The position numbers and the translations under genes were made by a program. Positions 1,402 to 17,019 of a DNA stretch of 46,339 nt are shown here, in pieces; position 1 is the first letter of the stretch; the number at the start of each line of letters is the position of its first letter. Source of the stretch: Clostridia bacterium (lineage in GTDB: Bacteria; Bacillota; Clostridia; Oscillospirales; CAG-272); NCBI GenBank assembly GCA_017461365.1, contig JAFTYG010000052.1, positions 1 through 46,339 on the forward strand, written 5' to 3'. The notes beneath the pieces are model-generated. The model did not search any database and was not told where the DNA came from. It saw only the letters and a program-made list of their open reading frames with translations.

Positions 1402-1488
1402 GCGGGTATGGCGGAATTGGCAGACGCGCTAGATTCAGGTTCTAGTGGGGGCAACTTCGTGCAGGTTCAACTCCTGTTACCCGCACCA
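1402..1488 (+). tRNA. tRNA-Leu(CAG)
   Basis: This is an 87-nt class II tRNA with encoded CCA. The acceptor GCGGGTA (1402-1408) pairs with TACCCGC (1478-1484), A1485 is the discriminator and CCA occupies 1486-1488. The anticodon stem is CTAGA (1429-1433) with TCTAG (1441-1445); loop 1434-1440 holds anticodon CAG at 1436-1438, reading CUG. A long variable arm follows, and the T arm is GCAGG/CCTGT around TTCAACT. Nucleotides 1435-1488, from the anticodon loop to CCA, recur in decayed form at 5534-5587. The gene is therefore a likely integration site for the segment immediately downstream. Confidence 0.97.
1435..1488 (+). repeat. Direct repeat, left copy (attL-like), 3' part of tRNA-Leu
   Basis: The 54 nt from the anticodon loop to the CCA end match 5534-5587 without gaps at 49 of 54 positions. 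Collinear but weaker similarity runs on through the terminator that follows. Starting at the anticodon loop is typical of attachment cores used by one group of tRNA-targeting tyrosine recombinases. Confidence 0.8.
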
Positions 1489-1490
1489 GT

Positions 1491-1537
1491 CGGCAGTGCC
1501 GACAGCCAATGTCGCTGTTTGTACTGCCGAATTTTTT
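1491..1537 (+). terminator. Intrinsic terminator of tRNA-Leu
   Basis: CGGCAGT (1491-1497) pairs with ACTGCCG (1523-1529), followed by AATTTTTTATT. The tail TTTTTATTCA (1533-1542) is found unchanged after the pseudo-tRNA terminator at 5631-5640. Confidence 0.85.
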
Positions 1538-1584
1538 ATTCAGCACCCGATAACGAGGTTTGCTATAAACGCTCGTACCCAAAA

Positions 1585-1617
1585 TCGACAAACCTCTGTC
1601 GAGATTTGTCGATTTTT
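1585..1617 (+). terminator. Second hairpin terminator downstream of tRNA-Leu
   Basis: TCGACAAA (1585-1592) pairs with TTTGTCGA (1605-1612), and an inner CTC/GAG pair closes a 4-nt loop. Five T residues follow at 1613-1617. Confidence 0.65.
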
Positions 1618-1650
1618 ACTTCTTCACCATTCACTCTTCACTAAAAAATC

Positions 1651-1685
1651 AGCCTTGAAAACACTACGTTTTCGAGGCTTTTATT
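1651..1685 (+). terminator. Third hairpin terminator before the epimerase promoter
   Basis: The 12-bp arms 1651-1662 and 1668-1679 (AGCCTTGAAAAC with GTTTTCGAGGCT) pair with one T-G wobble around a 5-nt loop. TTTTATTTTA follows. With the two preceding hairpins it insulates the cargo operon from tRNA transcription. Confidence 0.75.
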
Positions 1686-1701
1686 TTATATTTCCAATGA
1701 T

Positions 1702-1741
1702 AATTATTTTCAAAAAAAATAATATTGACAATTATTTTCAA
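1702..1741 (+). promoter_or_regulatory. Candidate operator: paired 12-bp direct repeats
   Basis: AATTATTTTCAA occurs exactly at 1702-1713 and again at 1730-1741, 28 bp apart. The second copy fills most of the spacer between the -35 and -10 boxes of the epimerase promoter, so a protein bound there would block RNA polymerase. The RpiR regulator encoded in the same operon is the obvious candidate ligand-responsive binder. That link is inference. Confidence 0.5.
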
Positions 1742-1753
1742 TTATGCTATAAT
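1725..1753 (+). promoter_or_regulatory. Consensus promoter of the AGE-rpiR-nanA-SGNH operon
   Basis: TTGACA (1725-1730), 17-bp spacer, TATAAT (1748-1753) with an extended TGC before it. Both hexamers are perfect, so repression rather than weak initiation probably sets expression. Confidence 0.88.
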
Positions 1754-1784
1754 AATTGCGATGATAATGAAAGGATGTTCTGTT

Positions 1785-2987
1785 ATGAATAAACAAAAGC
1801 TTCGATCCGTCAGAAGCTCGGTTCGTGAGCAACTTGACGGATGTATAAATTTTTGGCTTAACAATGGTATGGACAAAATAAACGGCGGAGTATATACCTG
1901 CCTTGACCGAAGCGGCAAGGTATATTCCACCGACAAGAGCGTTTGGATGCAGGGACGCTGTGCATGGACATTCTCTTGGCTCTGCAAGGTGTATGGCATC
2001 AATGAGGAGTGGTTAAACGCAGCAAAGAGTTGCCTCGACTTCATGGAAAAATACTGCATCAACCGCGAGGCTGGCGACCGTATGTACTTTACAGTCACCG
2101 CTGACGGTAAGCCCCTGCGTCAAAGAAGATATTTTTACTCCGAGACATTCTACTCTATGGCAAACGCCGAATATTACGGTATCACAGGAGAAAAGGAATA
2201 TCTTGACCGCGCAATCAGAGCTTACAACACCTATTGGGAGCTTTGGCACGGTGCTTACGATCCCACGGGACTTGGACCTAAGAGTATCCCCGAAACACGC
2301 ACGGGACGCTCATTTGGATACCCAATGATCTACCTCAATATGACCTCTATTTTATCAAGAGTCGATCCCGAGCATGCAGAGCTTTATGATTCCCGTGCCG
2401 AAGCGTGTATCGAGGATATTTTCAAATATCACGTTCATCCCGAGCTGAAATGTCTTCTTGAAAACGTAGGTCCTGACGGTGAGGCGAGACTTGATTTCAC
2501 CGACGGTCGTATCATCAATCCGGGACACGATATTGAAGGTGTGTGGTTTATTCTGGAATACGCCAAGCGTAAAGGAAGACATGAGCTCGTTGAAGCGTGC
2601 GAGGAGATATTCGTAAATGCCTTTGAAGGTGGTTGGGATAAGGAATACGGAGGACTGCTTTACTTTATCGACGCCCTCGGACTGCCTCCCGAATCCTACG
2701 AGCATGACATGAAGCTTTGGTGGCCTCATAACGAGATTCTTATCGCCTCGCTGATGCTCTACAGAGACACAGGAAAAGAAAAATATCTTGATTATTTCCA
2801 CAAAACCTTTTATTACTGCCTTGAGCATTTTTATGATAAGGAGTACGGAGAGTGGTACGGCTATCTCCGTCGTGACGGTCTGCCTACTATGCCTCCCTGC
2901 AAGGGATCTACCTTCAAGGGACCCTTTCACCTTCCGAGAATGCTCGGCATGGTAGACATAATGTTGGGTGAAATATTAGGAGAATGA
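1785..2987 (+). CDS. N-acylglucosamine 2-epimerase (AGE/RnBP family)
   Basis: This 400-residue (alpha/alpha)6-barrel protein interconverts N-acetylmannosamine and N-acetylglucosamine, or related sugars. Three histidines at family active-site positions are visible: His248 in NPGHDIEG, His315 in WWPHNE and His382 in GPFHLPRM. The start at 1785 (MNKQKL) is preferred over in-frame codons further upstream because it follows GAAAGG with normal spacing, gives the usual family length, and lies downstream of the -10 box. The gene overlaps rpiR by four bases (ATGA). With the lyase downstream it would complete a route from sialic acid to GlcNAc without a ManNAc kinase. Other AGE members act on cellobiose or mannose, so substrate rests partly on context. 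Confidence 0.85.
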   Translation: MNKQKLRSVRSSVREQLDGCINFWLNNGMDKINGGVYTCLDRSGKVYSTDKSVWMQGRCAWTFSWLCKVYGINEEWLNAAKSCLDFMEKYCINREAGDRMYFTVTADGKPLRQRRYFYSETFYSMANAEYYGITGEKEYLDRAIRAYNTYWELWHGAYDPTGLGPKSIPETRTGRSFGYPMIYLNMTSILSRVDPEHAELYDSRAEACIEDIFKYHVHPELKCLLENVGPDGEARLDFTDGRIINPGHDIEGVWFILEYAKRKGRHELVEACEEIFVNAFEGGWDKEYGGLLYFIDALGLPPESYEHDMKLWWPHNEILIASLMLYRDTGKEKYLDYFHKTFYYCLEHFYDKEYGEWYGYLRRDGLPTMPPCKGSTFKGPFHLPRMLGMVDIMLGEILGE

Positions 2988-3832
2988 TTGTGACACACAA
3001 CAATATAATCAATAAGATCCGCTCACGGTATTATAGCCTCAGTCCCGCAGAACAAAAGGTGGCAAATTATGTTTTAAGTAATCACGAAAAAATACAGTTC
3101 ATGTCTATTTCCGAGCTTGCGGAGCTTGTTGAGGTTTCCGATGCCACAGTTACCCGCTTTTGTCGAAGCCTCGGTCTTAAAGGATTTAACCTATTTAAGA
3201 TTGAGCTTGCAACGGCTATCGCCGAAACGCGCGCTCCCTCGATTCAAGAAAAAGCAGACGGTGTTCTCACAAGCGGAGAGGAAAGCGCGGCAGACTCAAA
3301 GAAGGCGATCGATGAAACTATCTCGCTGTTGGATAAGGATGCTATTAAACAAGTGATCGATCTTTTCGGGCTCGCTGACAGAGTACTGTGTGCAGGATCG
3401 GGCGGCAGTATGAGGATTGCAAATGAATGTGCGCACCTGTTTTCCATTGTTGAACCCAAATTTCTGGCTGTAACCGATTTTCATTCTCAAATATCTGCAA
3501 TTGCCACCATGAAGAAAAACGACGTCCTTCTTCTGATCTCCTACTCGGGTGCTACCATAAATGGAATGGAACTTTTGGAACTGACGAAAAAATTGGGGAT
3601 CAAAAGCATCCTCATTACGAGATTTAAAAGATCTCCCTTGGCAAAGCTGGCAGATGTTACACTCTGTTGCGGTTCCAATGAAGGACCTTATCAAATGGGT
3701 TCTATTGCCGCAAAAATCGCACTTTTAACTTTGGGCGACGTAATATTCAGAGAATATCGAAAAGAAAACGCCGAGACGGCTGAGGAAAATATCAAACGGG
3801 TAGCTTCTGCATTATCCGATAAACATTTATAA
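2984..3832 (+). CDS. RpiR-family transcriptional regulator (HTH + SIS)
   Basis: The 282-residue protein has the two-domain plan of the family. An N-terminal helix-turn-helix (about residues 1-80) shows the typical SLSPAEQKVANYVL and SDATVTRFCRSLGLKGF stretches. A C-terminal SIS sugar-phosphate-binding domain (about 125-265) carries GSGGSMRIA and ISYSGAT. Such regulators sense phosphosugars or amino sugars and usually control the operon that encodes them. Here the gene is translationally coupled to the epimerase and 18 bp before the aldolase, and direct repeats in the operon promoter are candidate binding sites. The inducer is likely a sialic acid breakdown product, by context. Confidence 0.9.
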   Translation: MIVTHNNIINKIRSRYYSLSPAEQKVANYVLSNHEKIQFMSISELAELVEVSDATVTRFCRSLGLKGFNLFKIELATAIAETRAPSIQEKADGVLTSGEESAADSKKAIDETISLLDKDAIKQVIDLFGLADRVLCAGSGGSMRIANECAHLFSIVEPKFLAVTDFHSQISAIATMKKNDVLLLISYSGATINGMELLELTKKLGIKSILITRFKRSPLAKLADVTLCCGSNEGPYQMGSIAAKIALLTLGDVIFREYRKENAETAEENIKRVASALSDKHL

Positions 3833-3850
3833 AATAATAAGGAGTCCATT

Positions 3851-4780
3851 ATGACAAACATCAAAAAATATCAGGGAGTTATTCCCGCGTTTTACGCTTG
3901 CTATGACAAAAATGGAAACGTTTCTACTGAAGCGGTTGAAACGTACACGAAATGGCTTGTTGCCAAAGGAGTAAAAGGAATATACGTGGGCGGCTCCTCG
4001 GGCGAGTGTATTTATCAAAGCGTTTCCGAGAGAAAGCAAATACTTGAACATGCGGTAAAGGCGGCAGACGGCAAGCTGACCGTCATTGCTCACGTTGCCT
4101 GTAACAATACAAGAGACAGTATGGAGTTAGCTACCCATGCGGAAAGTCTCGGTGTTGATGCGATCGCTGCAATTCCACCGATCTATTTCAAGCTTCCCGA
4201 TCACGCCATCGCGAGCTATTGGAACGACATATCCTCAGCCGCGCCAAAAACCGATTTCATTATCTACAATATCCCACAGCTTGCGGGAGTTGCCCTCACC
4301 CCCTCTCTGCTTTGTGAGATGTTAAAAAATCCTCGTGTGATCGGCGTAAAGAACAGCTCTATGCCCACAATGGACATTCAGCAGTTCAAGTACGAGGGCA
4401 CGCAAGGAGGCCGCGATTTTGTCGTATTAAACGGCCCTGACGAGCAGTTTATCAGCGGGCTCATCATCGGTGCCGACGGTGGCATCGGAGGTACTTATTC
4501 CGTCATGCCCGAGCTTTATCTCAAGCTTTTCGAGCTCTTCAAAAATGGTGACCTTGAAACCGCCTGCGCTCTCCAACATACGCTCAACAACATCATATAT
4601 AAGCTCTGCTCGGGAAAAGGAAATTTGTACGCTATGATCAAGGCTACTCTTAAAAAACGTGAAGGACTTGATCTTGGCGGAGTACGTCCTCCCCTTGCCA
4701 ACCTCTTCGATGGAGATATGCCCATCGTGGATGAGGCAGCGACTATGATCGACGAGGCTATCAAAAAATACATAGGATAA
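3851..4780 (+). CDS. nanA: N-acetylneuraminate lyase-like aldolase (DHDPS/NAL family)
   Basis: This 309-residue TIM-barrel class I aldolase would cleave N-acetylneuraminate to N-acetylmannosamine and pyruvate. Family landmarks are the carboxylate-binding GGSSGE (47-52), Tyr139 in YNIP and the Schiff-base Lys167 in GVKNSS; these sit two residues from the E. coli NanA positions Tyr137 and Lys165. GADGGIGGTYS also resembles the lyase subgroup more than dihydrodipicolinate synthase. The start follows AAGGAG at good spacing. The epimerase neighbour supports a sialic acid role, but other members of the superfamily act on different keto acids, so the substrate is not proven. Confidence 0.8.
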   Translation: MTNIKKYQGVIPAFYACYDKNGNVSTEAVETYTKWLVAKGVKGIYVGGSSGECIYQSVSERKQILEHAVKAADGKLTVIAHVACNNTRDSMELATHAESLGVDAIAAIPPIYFKLPDHAIASYWNDISSAAPKTDFIIYNIPQLAGVALTPSLLCEMLKNPRVIGVKNSSMPTMDIQQFKYEGTQGGRDFVVLNGPDEQFISGLIIGADGGIGGTYSVMPELYLKLFELFKNGDLETACALQHTLNNIIYKLCSGKGNLYAMIKATLKKREGLDLGGVRPPLANLFDGDMPIVDEAATMIDEAIKKYIG

Positions 4781-4791
4781 GAAACGGTATA

Positions 4792-5433
4792 ATGAAAAAA
4801 CATATTTTATGCTTTGGTGATTCCAATACCCACGGATACTGTGCCGATCCTACCGATTGTGCAAGGGGCGGTAACCGATTCAACGAAAACGAGCGTTGGA
4901 CCTGCCTTTTGCAAAAGCTTCTGGGTGACGAATATCTTGTAATAGAGGAAGGGCTCGGCGGAAGGACCACCGTATATGACGATCCGTATCACGAGGGGCT
5001 GTCAGGGCTTGATTATATTGCTCCCTGTCTTCTCACTCACGAGCCTGTCGACCTATTGATCATTATGCTGGGAACCAACGACACAAAGGCTCGTTTCAAC
5101 GCAAGCGCCCCCTGCATCAGTCTTGGTCTTCAGCGTCTCATCGAAAAAGCAAAATCAACACCCGCATGGAGTGGAAGCAAACCCAACATTTTAGTAATTG
5201 CTCCTCCGCACATTCACGAAGAATTTAACGACTCGTATATGGGCGATGGCTGTATTGAAAAATCCCGCGAGCTGGCAAGATATTACGAAAACGTCTGTAA
5301 GAACAACGGATGTGATTTCCTTGATGCCGAGGGAGTTGCGGAGTTCAACCAAAAAGACCATATGCATCTTAGTAAAAAGGGACATTCTGATCTTGCTAAC
5401 ACGCTCAGTAAGATCGTCCCAACGCTTGTATAG
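4792..5433 (+). CDS. SGNH/GDSL hydrolase, possible sialate or sugar O-acetylesterase
   Basis: The 213-residue protein shows all SGNH blocks: GDSN with nucleophile Ser11, the block II glycine in GLGGRT, GTND (block III) and the Asp189/His192 pair in DHMHLSKKGH (block V). There is no signal peptide, so it is cytoplasmic. It begins 11 bp after the lyase and is the last gene of the operon. Relatives are arylesterases and carbohydrate deacetylases. In this context, removal of O-acetyl groups from imported sialic acid is a reasonable guess, because the lyase acts poorly on O-acetylated forms. The ribosome binding site is weak, and translation may depend on coupling. Confidence 0.75.
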   Translation: MKKHILCFGDSNTHGYCADPTDCARGGNRFNENERWTCLLQKLLGDEYLVIEEGLGGRTTVYDDPYHEGLSGLDYIAPCLLTHEPVDLLIIMLGTNDTKARFNASAPCISLGLQRLIEKAKSTPAWSGSKPNILVIAPPHIHEEFNDSYMGDGCIEKSRELARYYENVCKNNGCDFLDAEGVAEFNQKDHMHLSKKGHSDLANTLSKIVPTLV

Positions 5434-5533
5434 ATGAATGAAATATAATTGAAGTTTGTAATGACGGAAAAGCAAAAAGACCACAAAAACCTTTCACCAA
5501 GTGTGACGGCGTGTCACCAAAGTGACACAACCC
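5434..5533. other. Island right-hand spacer, no gene
   Basis: These 100 bp after the esterase hold a perfect inverted repeat GTGTCAC (5511-5517) / GTGACAC (5522-5528) around CAAA, with no T run, so it is not a classic terminator. It sits against the pseudo-tRNA and could be a remnant of recombinase arm sites or simply an mRNA end structure. Nothing else is recognisable. Confidence 0.4.
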
Positions 5534-5587
5534 TCAGGTTCTGGTGAGGGCAACTTCGTGCAGGTTAAACTCCTGTTAACCGCACAA
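5534..5587 (+). pseudogene. tRNA-Leu 3'-half remnant (attR-like)
   Basis: The 54 nt match tRNA-Leu 1435-1488 at 49 positions without a gap, from the anticodon loop through the variable and T arms to the 3' end. The five changes include the T-loop C (TTCAACT becomes TTAAACT), an acceptor base and CCA to CAA, and there is no 5' half. It cannot fold as a functional tRNA. It is best read as the displaced 3' end of the original gene after integration. Confidence 0.85.
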
Positions 5588-5591
5588 TCAT

Positions 5592-5635
5592 GCAGTGTCG
5601 GTCTCCAAATCGGGGACTGTCACTGCTTGCTTTTT
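5592..5635 (+). terminator. Terminator behind the pseudo-tRNA, end of the island operon
   Basis: GCAGTG (5592-5597) pairs with CACTGC (5621-5626). The stem continues through CGGTCTCC with GGGGACTG, with one mismatch and two G-T pairs, around a 5-nt loop. TTGCTTTTTATT follows. Position and tail mirror the terminator at 1491-1537, so it was probably the tRNA terminator of the displaced copy. Confidence 0.8.
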
Positions 5636-5673
5636 ATTCATACCGCGATTGTGAATTTCGTTATGAACATTTC

Positions 5674-14802: not shown

Positions 14803-17019
14803 ATGCATACAGACAAAAATAAGGCAGCATCGCTATATGAGCTTTTGGCTGCATCGGGAAAAAATTACGACGTTGAAAAGATACGCGCGGCGTATGAATA
14901 TGCGGCGGCGCTTCACGAGGGACAGTTCAGAGTCAGCGGAGAGCCATACATATCTCACCCGATCGCCGTAGCCGAGATAGTTACGGGACTCGGACTCGAT
15001 ACAAATTCAATATGCGCGGCTCTGCTTCACGATACGGTGGAGGATTGCTCCGAGAAGACCAACCTCGAAGAGATAGAAAAGAGATTTGGAAAAGAAGTCG
15101 CTATGCTTGTAGACGGTCTTACGAAGCTCGTAACGCCGAATATCGAGGATAAGGAAGAGGCGCATATCGAGAATATCCGCAAGATGCTTTTAGCTATGTC
15201 CAAGGATATTCGTGTAATATTTATAAAGCTTTGCGACCGACTTCACAATATGAGAACGCTTGGTGTAAAGCCCGATCCCAAGAGACGTCAGACAGCGCTT
15301 GAAACGATGCACGTTTACGCGCCCCTTGCGCACCGCCTCGGTATGCAGAAGATAAAGCAGGAGCTTGAAAATCTTTGTATATCCTACCTCGATCCGATAG
15401 GATATGACGAAATACAGAGCTATATCGACGAGAAATACGGCGAAAGTATTAACTTTATTGACAGCATAAAGGCGGCGGTCAATGAAAAAATGACCGAAAA
15501 CAATATTCATTTCACGCTTGAGGGAAGAATAAAATCGGTCTACAGTATCTACCGTAAGATGTTCAATCAGAACAAGAGCTTTGACCAAATATATGACTTT
15601 TACGCGTTGAGAATAATCGTGGATACAGAGCTTGAATGTTATACCGCGCTCGAACTTATCCACGAAATGTATAAATCCGTCCCGGGAAGATTTAAGGATT
15701 ACATATCCACACCTAAGCCCAATATGTACCGCTCGCTCCATACGACGGTAATAGGAAGGGACGGAATACCCTTTGAAGTACAGATAAGAACGTGGGATAT
15801 GCACCACGTTGCCGAATACGGTATTGCAGCGCACTGGAAATATAAGTCGGGCGAAAAATCCAAGGAGGATATGGATAAGAAGCTTGAATGGATAGCAAGA
15901 CTTATTGAGACCGAGGATGAGGCAAAGGATCCCGATGAATTTCTCAACGCTCTCAAAACCGATATATTCCAGGATGAGACCTTTGTCTTTACTCCAAAGG
16001 GAGACGTTATAGCTCTGCCGCAGGGAGCTACGGTCATCGACTTTGCCTACGCGATACATTCGGGCGTCGGAAATAAGATGATCGGAGCGAAGATAAACGG
16101 AGTCATAGTTCCTATCGACAGAACACCCGCAACGGGCGACATCGTTGAAATAATGACCTCGACCTCATCTAAGGGCCCGAGCCGCGATTGGCTGAATATC
16201 GTCAAAACGAGTGAGGCGCGTACAAAGATACGCGGTTGGTTCAAAAAGGAAAAGAGAGCTGATAATATAATCGCGGGTAAGGCGATGATAGACGCTCAGC
16301 TCAAGCACTATACAAGGGCCGTTACCGAGGCTAAGAGAAACGAAATGGTAGCGGCGGTCGGAAAGCGTCTCGGATTTATGAGCGCGGACGACCTTTATAA
16401 TACCCTGGGCTACGGCGGTATCTCTATGGGTAAGATCGCCAATAAGCTCAGGGATGAATATGAGCGTATGCTTGAGGCGGAGGAGACCGAGCCTCAGGTT
16501 GAAATGACCGTGGATAAGGTCAAAACGGTATCCTCAAAGACTATAAAATCGGGAAGCGGTATCATAGTTGACGGCGAAGCTGGCTGTCAGGTCAAATTTG
16601 CGCGTTGCTGTAATCCTCTGCCGGGGGACGACGTTATCGGCTTTATCACAAAGGGCTTCGGTATCTCGATACATAAATGCGATTGCCCCAACGTCAAGCT
16701 CGGACGTGAAAATCCCGAAAATGCAGATCGCTGGGTGGAAGCTCATTGGCAGACCGACGGCGGCGCGTCGGACAACAGTATGTATGAAGCGCAGATCACG
16801 GTTTACGTTGAGAATCGTATGGGCATCGTTGCCGATATATCCGTGGCGCTGTCCGAAATGCGTGTATTTCTGTTGCAGATAAACAGCGCGGGCACTAACA
16901 GTGAGGATTCTGTTATTTCTCTTAAGATCAGTTGTAAAAATGTCGATCACTACAATTCAATAGTTGCGCGCCTGAGATCGATAAACGGAGTCAGGGACGT
17001 TGTAAGAGGATTTTCGTGA
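14803..17019 (+). CDS. relA: Bifunctional (p)ppGpp synthetase/hydrolase Rel
   Basis: This 738-residue stringent-response enzyme has an N-terminal HD hydrolase (His76-Asp77 and Glu80-Asp81 in LLHDTVEDC), a synthetase domain with PGRFKDYI, TGS (about 390-450) and C-terminal zinc-finger and ACT domains. The RFKD form of the synthetase motif and the intact HD box mark a bifunctional Rel rather than a synthesis-only RelA. It both makes and destroys (p)ppGpp in response to uncharged tRNA on ribosomes. GGAGAGG precedes the ATG. It sits between recJ and dtd as in many Firmicutes, except that the usual apt gene is missing. Confidence 0.96.
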   Translation: MHTDKNKAASLYELLAASGKNYDVEKIRAAYEYAAALHEGQFRVSGEPYISHPIAVAEIVTGLGLDTNSICAALLHDTVEDCSEKTNLEEIEKRFGKEVAMLVDGLTKLVTPNIEDKEEAHIENIRKMLLAMSKDIRVIFIKLCDRLHNMRTLGVKPDPKRRQTALETMHVYAPLAHRLGMQKIKQELENLCISYLDPIGYDEIQSYIDEKYGESINFIDSIKAAVNEKMTENNIHFTLEGRIKSVYSIYRKMFNQNKSFDQIYDFYALRIIVDTELECYTALELIHEMYKSVPGRFKDYISTPKPNMYRSLHTTVIGRDGIPFEVQIRTWDMHHVAEYGIAAHWKYKSGEKSKEDMDKKLEWIARLIETEDEAKDPDEFLNALKTDIFQDETFVFTPKGDVIALPQGATVIDFAYAIHSGVGNKMIGAKINGVIVPIDRTPATGDIVEIMTSTSSKGPSRDWLNIVKTSEARTKIRGWFKKEKRADNIIAGKAMIDAQLKHYTRAVTEAKRNEMVAAVGKRLGFMSADDLYNTLGYGGISMGKIANKLRDEYERMLEAEETEPQVEMTVDKVKTVSSKTIKSGSGIIVDGEAGCQVKFARCCNPLPGDDVIGFITKGFGISIHKCDCPNVKLGRENPENADRWVEAHWQTDGGASDNSMYEAQITVYVENRMGIVADISVALSEMRVFLLQINSAGTNSEDSVISLKISCKNVDHYNSIVARLRSINGVRDVVRGFS

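Follow-up and report, generated by a model that had tools for sequence, protein, structure and literature searches.

Putative cargo cassettes at tRNA-Leu(CAG) in Clostridia and a candidate large serine recombinase

The tRNA-Leu locus

The subject of this work is a 4,099-bp segment at a tRNA-Leu gene in a stretch of 46,339 nucleotides from Clostridia bacterium (GTDB lineage Bacteria; Bacillota; Clostridia; Oscillospirales; CAG-272), which is positions 1 to 46,339 of contig JAFTYG010000052.1 in assembly GCA_017461365.1 and is called the window here. An earlier sequence-only reading had described the segment as a minimal, integrase-less island with a sialic acid cargo, lying between the tRNA gene and a decayed copy of its 3′ half.

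ARAGORN finds a single tRNA in the window, a tRNA-Leu with the anticodon CAG at 1402-1488 on the forward strand. Its 3′ half (1435-1488) matches 5534-5587 without gaps at 49 of 54 positions, and the two copies start 4,099 nucleotides apart. The intact tRNA stands on the upstream side; the repeat runs from TCAGG in the anticodon loop to the 3′ terminus of the tRNA. The next best match of this 54-mer on either strand of the window is 27/54, and chance is therefore excluded. The repeat, its geometry and the length of the unit (1435-5533) are thus as first described. The same holds for the decay of the distal copy, which reads CAA in place of CCA and differs at six positions from the type-A half (one of three types of 3′ half, see below), compared with one position in the intact tRNA.

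The features of the locus are as follows, all on the forward strand. X is a conserved motif described in the next section, and att denotes attachment sites.

1402-1488, +: intact tRNA-Leu(CAG), from ARAGORN; it would be the target attB, regenerated as attL
1435-1436, +: TC dinucleotide at the start of the repeat; putative left-junction crossover, from the alignment of forward and mirror junctions in relatives
1437-1488, +: presumed element-borne tRNA 3′ half, type A, which would complete the gene after insertion, judging by the geometry
1489-1690, +: terminator-like hairpins 3′ of the tRNA, by eye (individual hairpins at 1489-1503 and 1651-1682)
1725-1753, +: promoter-like TTGACA, 17 nt, TATAAT, a match to the consensus by eye only
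1785-2987, +: gene of the AGE / GlcNAc-2-epimerase family (PF07221)
2984-3832, +: RpiR-type regulator (HTH_6 and SIS)
3851-4780, +: NanA-like lyase of the DHDPS family; best NCBIfam match N-acetylneuraminate lyase, below cut-off
4792-5433, +: SGNH/GDSL hydrolase, a possible esterase
5488-5533, +: long form of X, the presumed element end (half-site), directly 5′ of the displaced half and in the same place in relatives
5534-5535, +: TC dinucleotide, putative right-junction crossover (attR)
5534-5587, +: displaced, decayed 3′ half of the original tRNA-Leu (49/54, CCA lost)
5588-5640, +: terminator-like hairpin of the displaced half, by eye

The array in the window consists of a single unit, flanked by attL- and attR-like sites and showing the combination of an intact tDNA with a displaced tRNA fragment. 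Its long X contains a perfect inverted repeat, GTGTCAC-GTGACAC, and the hairpin at 1651-1682 recurs behind tRNA-Leu halves in relatives.

Motif X and tandem units in related genomes

A sample of 30 genomes of the genus was searched, including the window's own genome (G000). Downstream of tRNA-Leu(CAG) there are many extra copies of the 54-bp half, frequently with several in a row; the displaced copies start at the anticodon loop. There are also mirror units, in which copies of the tRNA 5′ half lie upstream of tRNA-Leu(CAG). Directly before all 18 displaced halves whose junctions were read there is a conserved motif that is not tRNA sequence. This motif, X, has a short form, AACCTTTCACCGAGGTGACGTTACCA, and a long form of about 46 nt. 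The intact tRNAs and the displaced halves both include each of three 3′-half types, A, B and C.

Other elements ending in the same tRNA half, which the sequence-only reading had suggested looking for, do therefore exist. As far as the data reach, they also remove the possibility, raised at the same time, that the distal copy is a decayed tandem tRNA-Leu, since what precedes the 18 halves is X and not a 5′ half. The segment is not the lone minimal island first supposed but one of a family of cassettes that form tandem arrays.

The short X was found at 21 places in 11 of the 30 genus genomes, against one place for the same pattern written backwards. When the long-form genomes (G000, G014 and G016) are counted, X is present in 14/30, or 13/30 without G020, where X is on a contig that is probably misbinned (see below). 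A stricter pattern of X plus core matched 16 of 395 genomes of the family, in 9 of its 71 sampled genera, and its control matched none. In the named genome collection 30 stretches matched, some of them from one contig, and 29 were judged real from their flanks; the remaining one (L115) was left out as a chance match after its flanks were read. The records are metagenome-assembled genomes (MAGs) that bear the labels Oscillospiraceae, Ruminococcaceae, Eubacterium, Eubacteriales or Clostridia; sheep, goat or deer are given as the sample source in 16 of the 30 titles. Among viral contigs a loose pattern gave 15 matches, all judged to be chance from their flanks, and two stricter patterns gave none. 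Plasmids gave partial matches only; phages gave two weak matches, and X was not seen in the stretches read.

Some single occurrences may be added. The window's genome has a second long-form X on another contig (G000:C64, minus strand, L077:888-944), next to a truncated tRNA half and to a pair of genes with relatives in G015 and G016 cassettes. A nineteenth, weak half of the CAG type lies in G002 (G002:C1, L046:16270-16450), 4 kb downstream of tRNA-Leu(TAG) and behind cargo-like genes; its end is X-like but decayed. Among the phage records, MT835865.1 (L204), deposited as 'Bacteriophage sp.', looks chromosomal, with tryptophan biosynthesis genes (named by eye) beside a tRNA-Leu-like sequence, and OP964054 begins with a tRNA-Leu-like sequence adjoining what by eye is an integrase-like gene.

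Position of the crossover

Read with X from left to right, the forward junctions have the form GTTACC(A/C/G)-TC-AGGTTC (41 distinct short-X and 5 distinct long-X sequences). The mirror junctions, in which X is reversed and follows the 5′ half, read GTTACCT-GA-ATCTAG (6 short-X sequences and 1 long-X sequence), and one further mirror junction was seen by eye in G113. The script that collected them required TCAG at the forward core and the 5′ half for mirrors, so that those letters are partly present by construction, but the flush alignment is not. With 6 mismatches, one short-X junction (in G008) is possibly decayed or a chance match. Forward and mirror X can be aligned flush, and they diverge in the core and in the base preceding it. 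On the assumption of a single enzyme with a single centre, no position other than TC/GA suits both polarities, and the alignment thus suggests a crossover there.

A core of this kind has parallels among large serine recombinases (LSRs). TnpX presumably uses GA. In the target of TndX, the LSR of Tn5397, a central GA is required (PMC4430133). An LSR of this kind is reported to carry out both integration and excision without a directionality factor (PMC5704250). The half-site structure of LSRs is treated in PMC3783163.

Sharing of cassettes between genomes

Nearly identical cassettes are shared within two pairs of genomes whose rpoB regions are diverged. G023 and G252 belong to different genera, and the longest piece of their rpoB region is 77% identical; one of their cassettes is 98.0% identical over 1,420 bp. 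The right-hand limit of this match coincides with the end of the displaced half, and the left-hand limit falls inside the tRNA half, because the T-loop part of the G023 copy is interrupted by an additional 160 bp or so. The neighbouring units, pieces of X and tRNA half aside, are unrelated or at most about 81% identical over 412 bp. G087 and G251, of the same genus, share 4,776 bp at 97.7%, compared with 75% in the rpoB region; here the right limit is again at the end of the half, and the left limit is a contig end. Cassettes are thus shared between genera with sharp boundaries, as far as can be read from assembled sequence. Since single cassettes are common to distant genomes and their boundary lies at the end of the half, recent movement as individual units would appear to be the explanation.

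A chromosomal flank shared by G006 and G023 (75% nucleotide identity) lies about 1.8 kb past the tRNA in G006, and in G023 it lies beyond a 12-kb array of three units.

A 99.5% match between G020:C70 and G363 was dropped as a case of transfer between genera: a flanking open reading frame (ORF) of 811 aa, pheT-like by eye, is also 99.5% identical over 400 aa, which suggests that the G020 contig is misbinned. The flanks of this contig (L072) are 98.6-99.5% identical to G363, which is of another genus. The G363 bin may itself be mixed, because it has two rpoB copies that are 82% alike. The two arrays differ between the tRNA halves, and they provide a near-isogenic comparison of cassette content.

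Cargo of the window unit and of other cassettes

The sequence-only reading had assigned the window cargo to sialic acid metabolism. The best NCBIfam models, N-acyl-glucosamine 2-epimerase for the epimerase and N-acetylneuraminate lyase for the lyase, fit this assignment, but both score under the model cut-offs; the function is likely from these matches and is unproven. Domain searches found no recombinase domain in the four proteins, nor any integration or transfer gene among them, LSR and relaxase included. None of the matches of G000 to PF00589 or PF00239 lies on the contig of the window (C34). The unit thus lacks an integrase, as had been said.

Nor, as far as the data reach, do all relatives carry the four genes with the same flanks: in the 30 genus genomes a DNA match of cargo length was found in G020 only. 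The copy in G020 is the nearest fetched relative of the cargo. It has three of the four genes (87, 71 and 91% amino acid identity) inside a gene cluster of sugar-acid type, with a BNR-domain gene after it; no tRNA, X motif or tRNA half was seen on its contig. A tblastn search with the four proteins against the fetched tRNA-Leu loci gave only partial RpiR matches of about 30%; a search against whole-genome proteins was not made.

Most of the cassettes are small. Among 27 units bounded on both sides, 21 measure 0.9-2.6 kb and six measure 2.9-9.7 kb; units whose left limit is a contig end or was set by hand (G113, G251, G002:C14, G014, G000:C64 and others) are excluded from these counts. Of the 103 cassette ORFs with 90 aa or more, 72 were scanned. 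Among the 25 listed of the 72 Pfam families matched, the commonest are AraC regulators (6), GFO/IDH/MocA oxidoreductases (5), cupins (5) and beta-lactamase-type hydrolases (3). There is also a recurring lipoprotein family with little or no Pfam match in the members examined. It is found across genera (L069:12124-13338, L072:3693-5165, L064:2504-3925 and others), and several members end in GKG directly before X.

It is worth adding that two further kinds of repeat with tRNA fragments were seen. In one kind, an insert of about 160 bp brings a second copy of the final 26 nt of the tRNA (breakpoint in the T-loop) and contains large imperfect inverted repeats; such inserts look like a second family of mini-elements at this tRNA and lie inside X-type cassettes (L057:3222-3249 with 3389-3416; L068:14125-14152 with 15680-15707). 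Repeats of about 160-180 bp start with the first 22 or so nt of tRNA-Leu (breakpoint in the D-loop) and form the third kind (L053:3620-3806; L056:15859-15883; L048:8256-8280). One of these lies upstream of tRNA-Leu(TAG).

A candidate recombinase

It had been proposed that a recombinase supplied from elsewhere would move the unit. That no PF00589 or PF00239 match lies inside any unit agrees with this, but the tyrosine type then expected gives way to an LSR as the most likely candidate. A search for PF00239 in 26 X-bearing genomes gave a match in 20. In G002 a 541-aa LSR gene lies 111 bp downstream of tRNA-Leu(CAG) and convergent with it. Its domains are Resolvase, Recombinase and Zn_ribbon_recom, and the best match among solved structures is TnpX (E 4.6e-20). 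Relics of this same LSR, in the same orientation, occur in G007 and G025, some 120-180 bp after the junction of X and tRNA half.

Homologues of at least 64% identity were found in 6 of 412 genomes (395 searched with the G002 protein and 17 with that of G146): G002, G113, G146, G311, G338 (partial) and G411. The remaining matches listed have at most 31% identity. In G002, G113, G311, G338 and G411 the LSR gene is followed on its 3′ side by a convergent tRNA-Leu(CAG); the five distances, from shortest to longest, are about 0.1, 0.2, 0.3, 1.0 and 2.1 kb. In G146 no tRNA-Leu gene was seen in the stretch, but one contig holds in succession the LSR, a PF03432 relaxase and an X-TC-tRNA-Leu 3′ half junction, with no tRNA half between them. 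Relaxases are also found beside the LSR in G311 (PF03432) and G411 (MobL). The LSR is thus linked to tRNA-Leu(CAG) and, in one genome, to X, by position on the contigs. Beside the G146 LSR there are two genes for C-5 cytosine methylases and one for a Vsr endonuclease (L216:12736-16740), which are probably cargo.

Proposed mechanism

The att-like structure of the units and its recurrence are established at the level of sequence. On the basis of these observations, we hypothesise that the units are cargo-only cassettes which are moved in trans by a tRNA-specific serine integrase, with a logic like that of integrons, and we consider this probable. The 4,099-bp unit would then be one such cassette, with the anticodon loop of tRNA-Leu(CAG) as its insertion site. 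In a circular form, the cassette would carry one compound site (attP) made up of the X half-site, the 2-bp core TC and a tRNA 3′ half. The tRNA gene would serve as attB, and recombination would join the 3′ half of the cassette to the resident 5′ half, so that a working tRNA is rebuilt while X and the old 3′ half are left at the far end. The sequence of attL would thus equal that of attB, and attR that of attP. As the rebuilt left junction is a complete tRNA gene, the next cassette could insert there, and tandem arrays would result. With GA as the core, a cassette would bring the 5′ half instead and land on the opposite side of the tRNA. The enzyme would be the TnpX-like LSR, supplied by elements that have a relaxase, use this tRNA as well and likewise end in X. 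This model would explain the tandem arrays, the swapped types of 3′ half, why displaced halves decay and why no enzyme is on board.

More tentatively, and with a little less than even confidence, we suggest that the system is a serine-recombinase counterpart of the integron, with a tRNA gene as a permanent capture site, compound sites, and the LSR on separate mobilizable elements. In such a system, the 2-bp core (TC or GA) would set the side of the tRNA on which a cassette lies. The circular intermediate and the route between cells are what we infer from the geometry of the junctions.

Several points count against this explanation. Excision, a circle and transfer have not been observed. At E 1e-60, no LSR of this clade was found in the window's genome (95% complete), and one is also missing from most of the X-bearing genomes that were searched. 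In the 395-genome sample the strict pattern of X was found in one of four LSR carriers (G113), the X of G146 being over the mismatch limit. Co-occurrence of LSR and X is thus not significant, and the case rests on physical linkage. For G146 the left end of the element lies off the contig, so LSR and X in one element is itself a deduction. The control for the linkage is thin: 0 of 9 loci of LSRs with at most 31% identity have a tRNA within about 1.5 kb of the gene, and the tRNA of G411 was found only on a wider look than this.

The sites themselves also fit imperfectly. Symmetric LSR sites are expected to show inverted similarity of their half-sites. Between X and the tRNA 3′ half this similarity is modest for type B, being reached in 8/2000 shuffles, while for types A (109/2000) and C (985/2000) it is weak or absent; a palindromic attP was accordingly rejected, the inverted similarity being only weak. 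About 20 extra nt of the long X are unexplained by a simple half-site model.

Alternative explanations

The units could instead be islands that once carried an integrase and have decayed, that is, cis-mobilizable elements (CIMEs) left after loss of LSR and relaxase and now fixed or mobilised by accretion only. This overlaps with the cassette hypothesis and differs in denying that single cassettes move in trans. The LSR relics in the arrays of G007 and G025 (there are none in the window unit), the partial LSR of G338 and the decayed displaced half of the window would all fit, and CIMEs and accretion are described for such sites (PMC5704250, PMC3146451). Remnants of larger islands would not readily account for the compact size of 21 of the 27 bounded units, nor for single cassettes common to distant genomes with their boundary at the end of the tRNA half. 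We regard this explanation as rather unlikely.

Movement in trans by a tyrosine recombinase would keep the cassettes and replace the enzyme. It could be the integrase of a phage or of an integrative and conjugative element, the resident Xer-like protein, or a widespread 280-aa enzyme. The overlap would be TCAGGT, a 6-bp block of the anticodon loop. Tyrosine integrases typically target tRNA genes and often cross over in the anticodon loop (Islander, PMC4383910); elements that carry tRNA halves are also characteristic of them, a point that tells against a serine enzyme. PF00589 matches occur in every genome tested, with at least one in each of the 30 genus genomes. In G029 and G013 there is a single match, Xer-like in size and score, and one protein of G000 we likewise take, from its sequence, to be Xer. 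Three X-bearing contigs (G015:C17, G023:C63 and G025:C8) have a PF00589 match 24-58 kb from the array, which also speaks against the LSR, and on G020:C50 the terminator seen at 1651-1682 of the window lies about 0.8 kb from a PF00589 gene (L073:1108-2530). Against this, no PF00589 match lies inside any unit of the genus and of 12 family genomes, nor on the X-bearing contigs of those 12. No association with X was seen for the 280-aa enzyme, which occurs in 7 of 16 X-bearing genomes and in 108 of 379 others (Fisher p 0.26), and the 34 loci fetched around its genes, G020:C50 included, contain no tRNA-Leu core pattern. On these grounds a tyrosine recombinase was set aside as the partner; it would also leave the link of the LSR to tRNA-Leu and X unexplained. 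An enzyme of this type is unlikely.

Tandem duplication or homologous recombination between tRNA-Leu genes or fragments, with no site-specific step, is barely credible: the repeat does consist of part of a tRNA, and in MAGs a repeat can cause a break or a false join (the end of G013:C254 falls exactly at X plus core), but X precedes all 18 displaced halves whose junctions were read and recurs in unrelated units and genera, the displaced copies start at the anticodon loop, and mirror units exist.

If the cassette hypothesis is correct, the units form a recurrent class of mobile cassettes in 9 of the 71 sampled genera of the window's family and in further Clostridia and Oscillospiraceae MAGs. 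They would be a gene-capture system with integron-like logic and an unrelated enzyme, in which tRNA 3′ halves are naturally swapped, and the compact set of sites would allow direct testing of the role of the 2-bp core in insertion polarity. As a counterpart of the integron, it would redistribute genes for metabolism and lipoproteins among gut Clostridia.

Comparison with known systems

Judging from titles and the opening parts of abstracts, tRNA-Leu cassettes of this kind were not found in the literature. The nearest precedent is the ssrA islands of Dehalococcoides. These have an LSR, DsiB, beside attL, and 15 of the islands lack an integration module and were proposed as possible cis-mobilizable elements (PMC3146451). 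As here, the islands stand in tandem downstream of a small-RNA gene, with the LSR gene beside attL on the reverse strand. They differ in the site, which is ssrA (tmRNA), in a 20-bp repeat and in a CcrB-like LSR, compared with the anticodon loop of tRNA-Leu, the presumed element-borne 54-bp half, the TnpX-like LSR, both polarities and the mostly small cassettes described here.

The Tn4451/Tn4453 and Tn5397-type elements (TnpX/TndX) resemble the LSR-bearing elements found here in the LSR family and in the presence of a relaxase (PMC4430133, PMC5704250). The GA core of TndX (PMC4430133) would correspond to the proposed TC/GA. Those elements encode an LSR of their own and either show little target specificity or prefer other sites, whereas the window unit has no LSR, no relaxase and a tRNA target.

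With CIMEs and Islander-type tDNA islands the units share att-like repeats around the cargo and a regenerated tRNA with a displaced fragment (PMC5704250, PMC4383910). The Islander method as described tests for an integrase gene inside the island, and for tyrosine integrases only (PMC4383910). An island of that type has its tyrosine integrase gene inside, and the window unit has none. The tycheposons of Prochlorococcus are also cargo elements at tRNA genes and carry a tyrosine recombinase; in the units here no tyrosine recombinase was found.

In integrons the primary site is rebuilt at each insertion, as we propose for the tRNA gene. Like integron arrays and the integrase-less arrays known as CALINs, which are moved in trans, the units would be tandem cargo cassettes with one end site each and an enzyme acting in trans (PMC11389934). 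No PF00589 match was found inside a unit, although no IntI-specific model was searched, and an IntI-type enzyme could lie elsewhere in a genome. X was also considered as a folded, single-stranded site like attC: the short form gives no support, as it folds no better than shuffled sequence (z -0.06), and the long form of the window gives weak support (z -1.7 and -2.4 by strand); attC boxes were not searched. Compared with integrons and CALINs, the system has a tRNA gene as primary site, a serine recombinase as candidate enzyme and no attC-like fold for the short X, and what it shares with them, to judge by the geometry in relatives, is tandem cassettes at a regenerated primary site.

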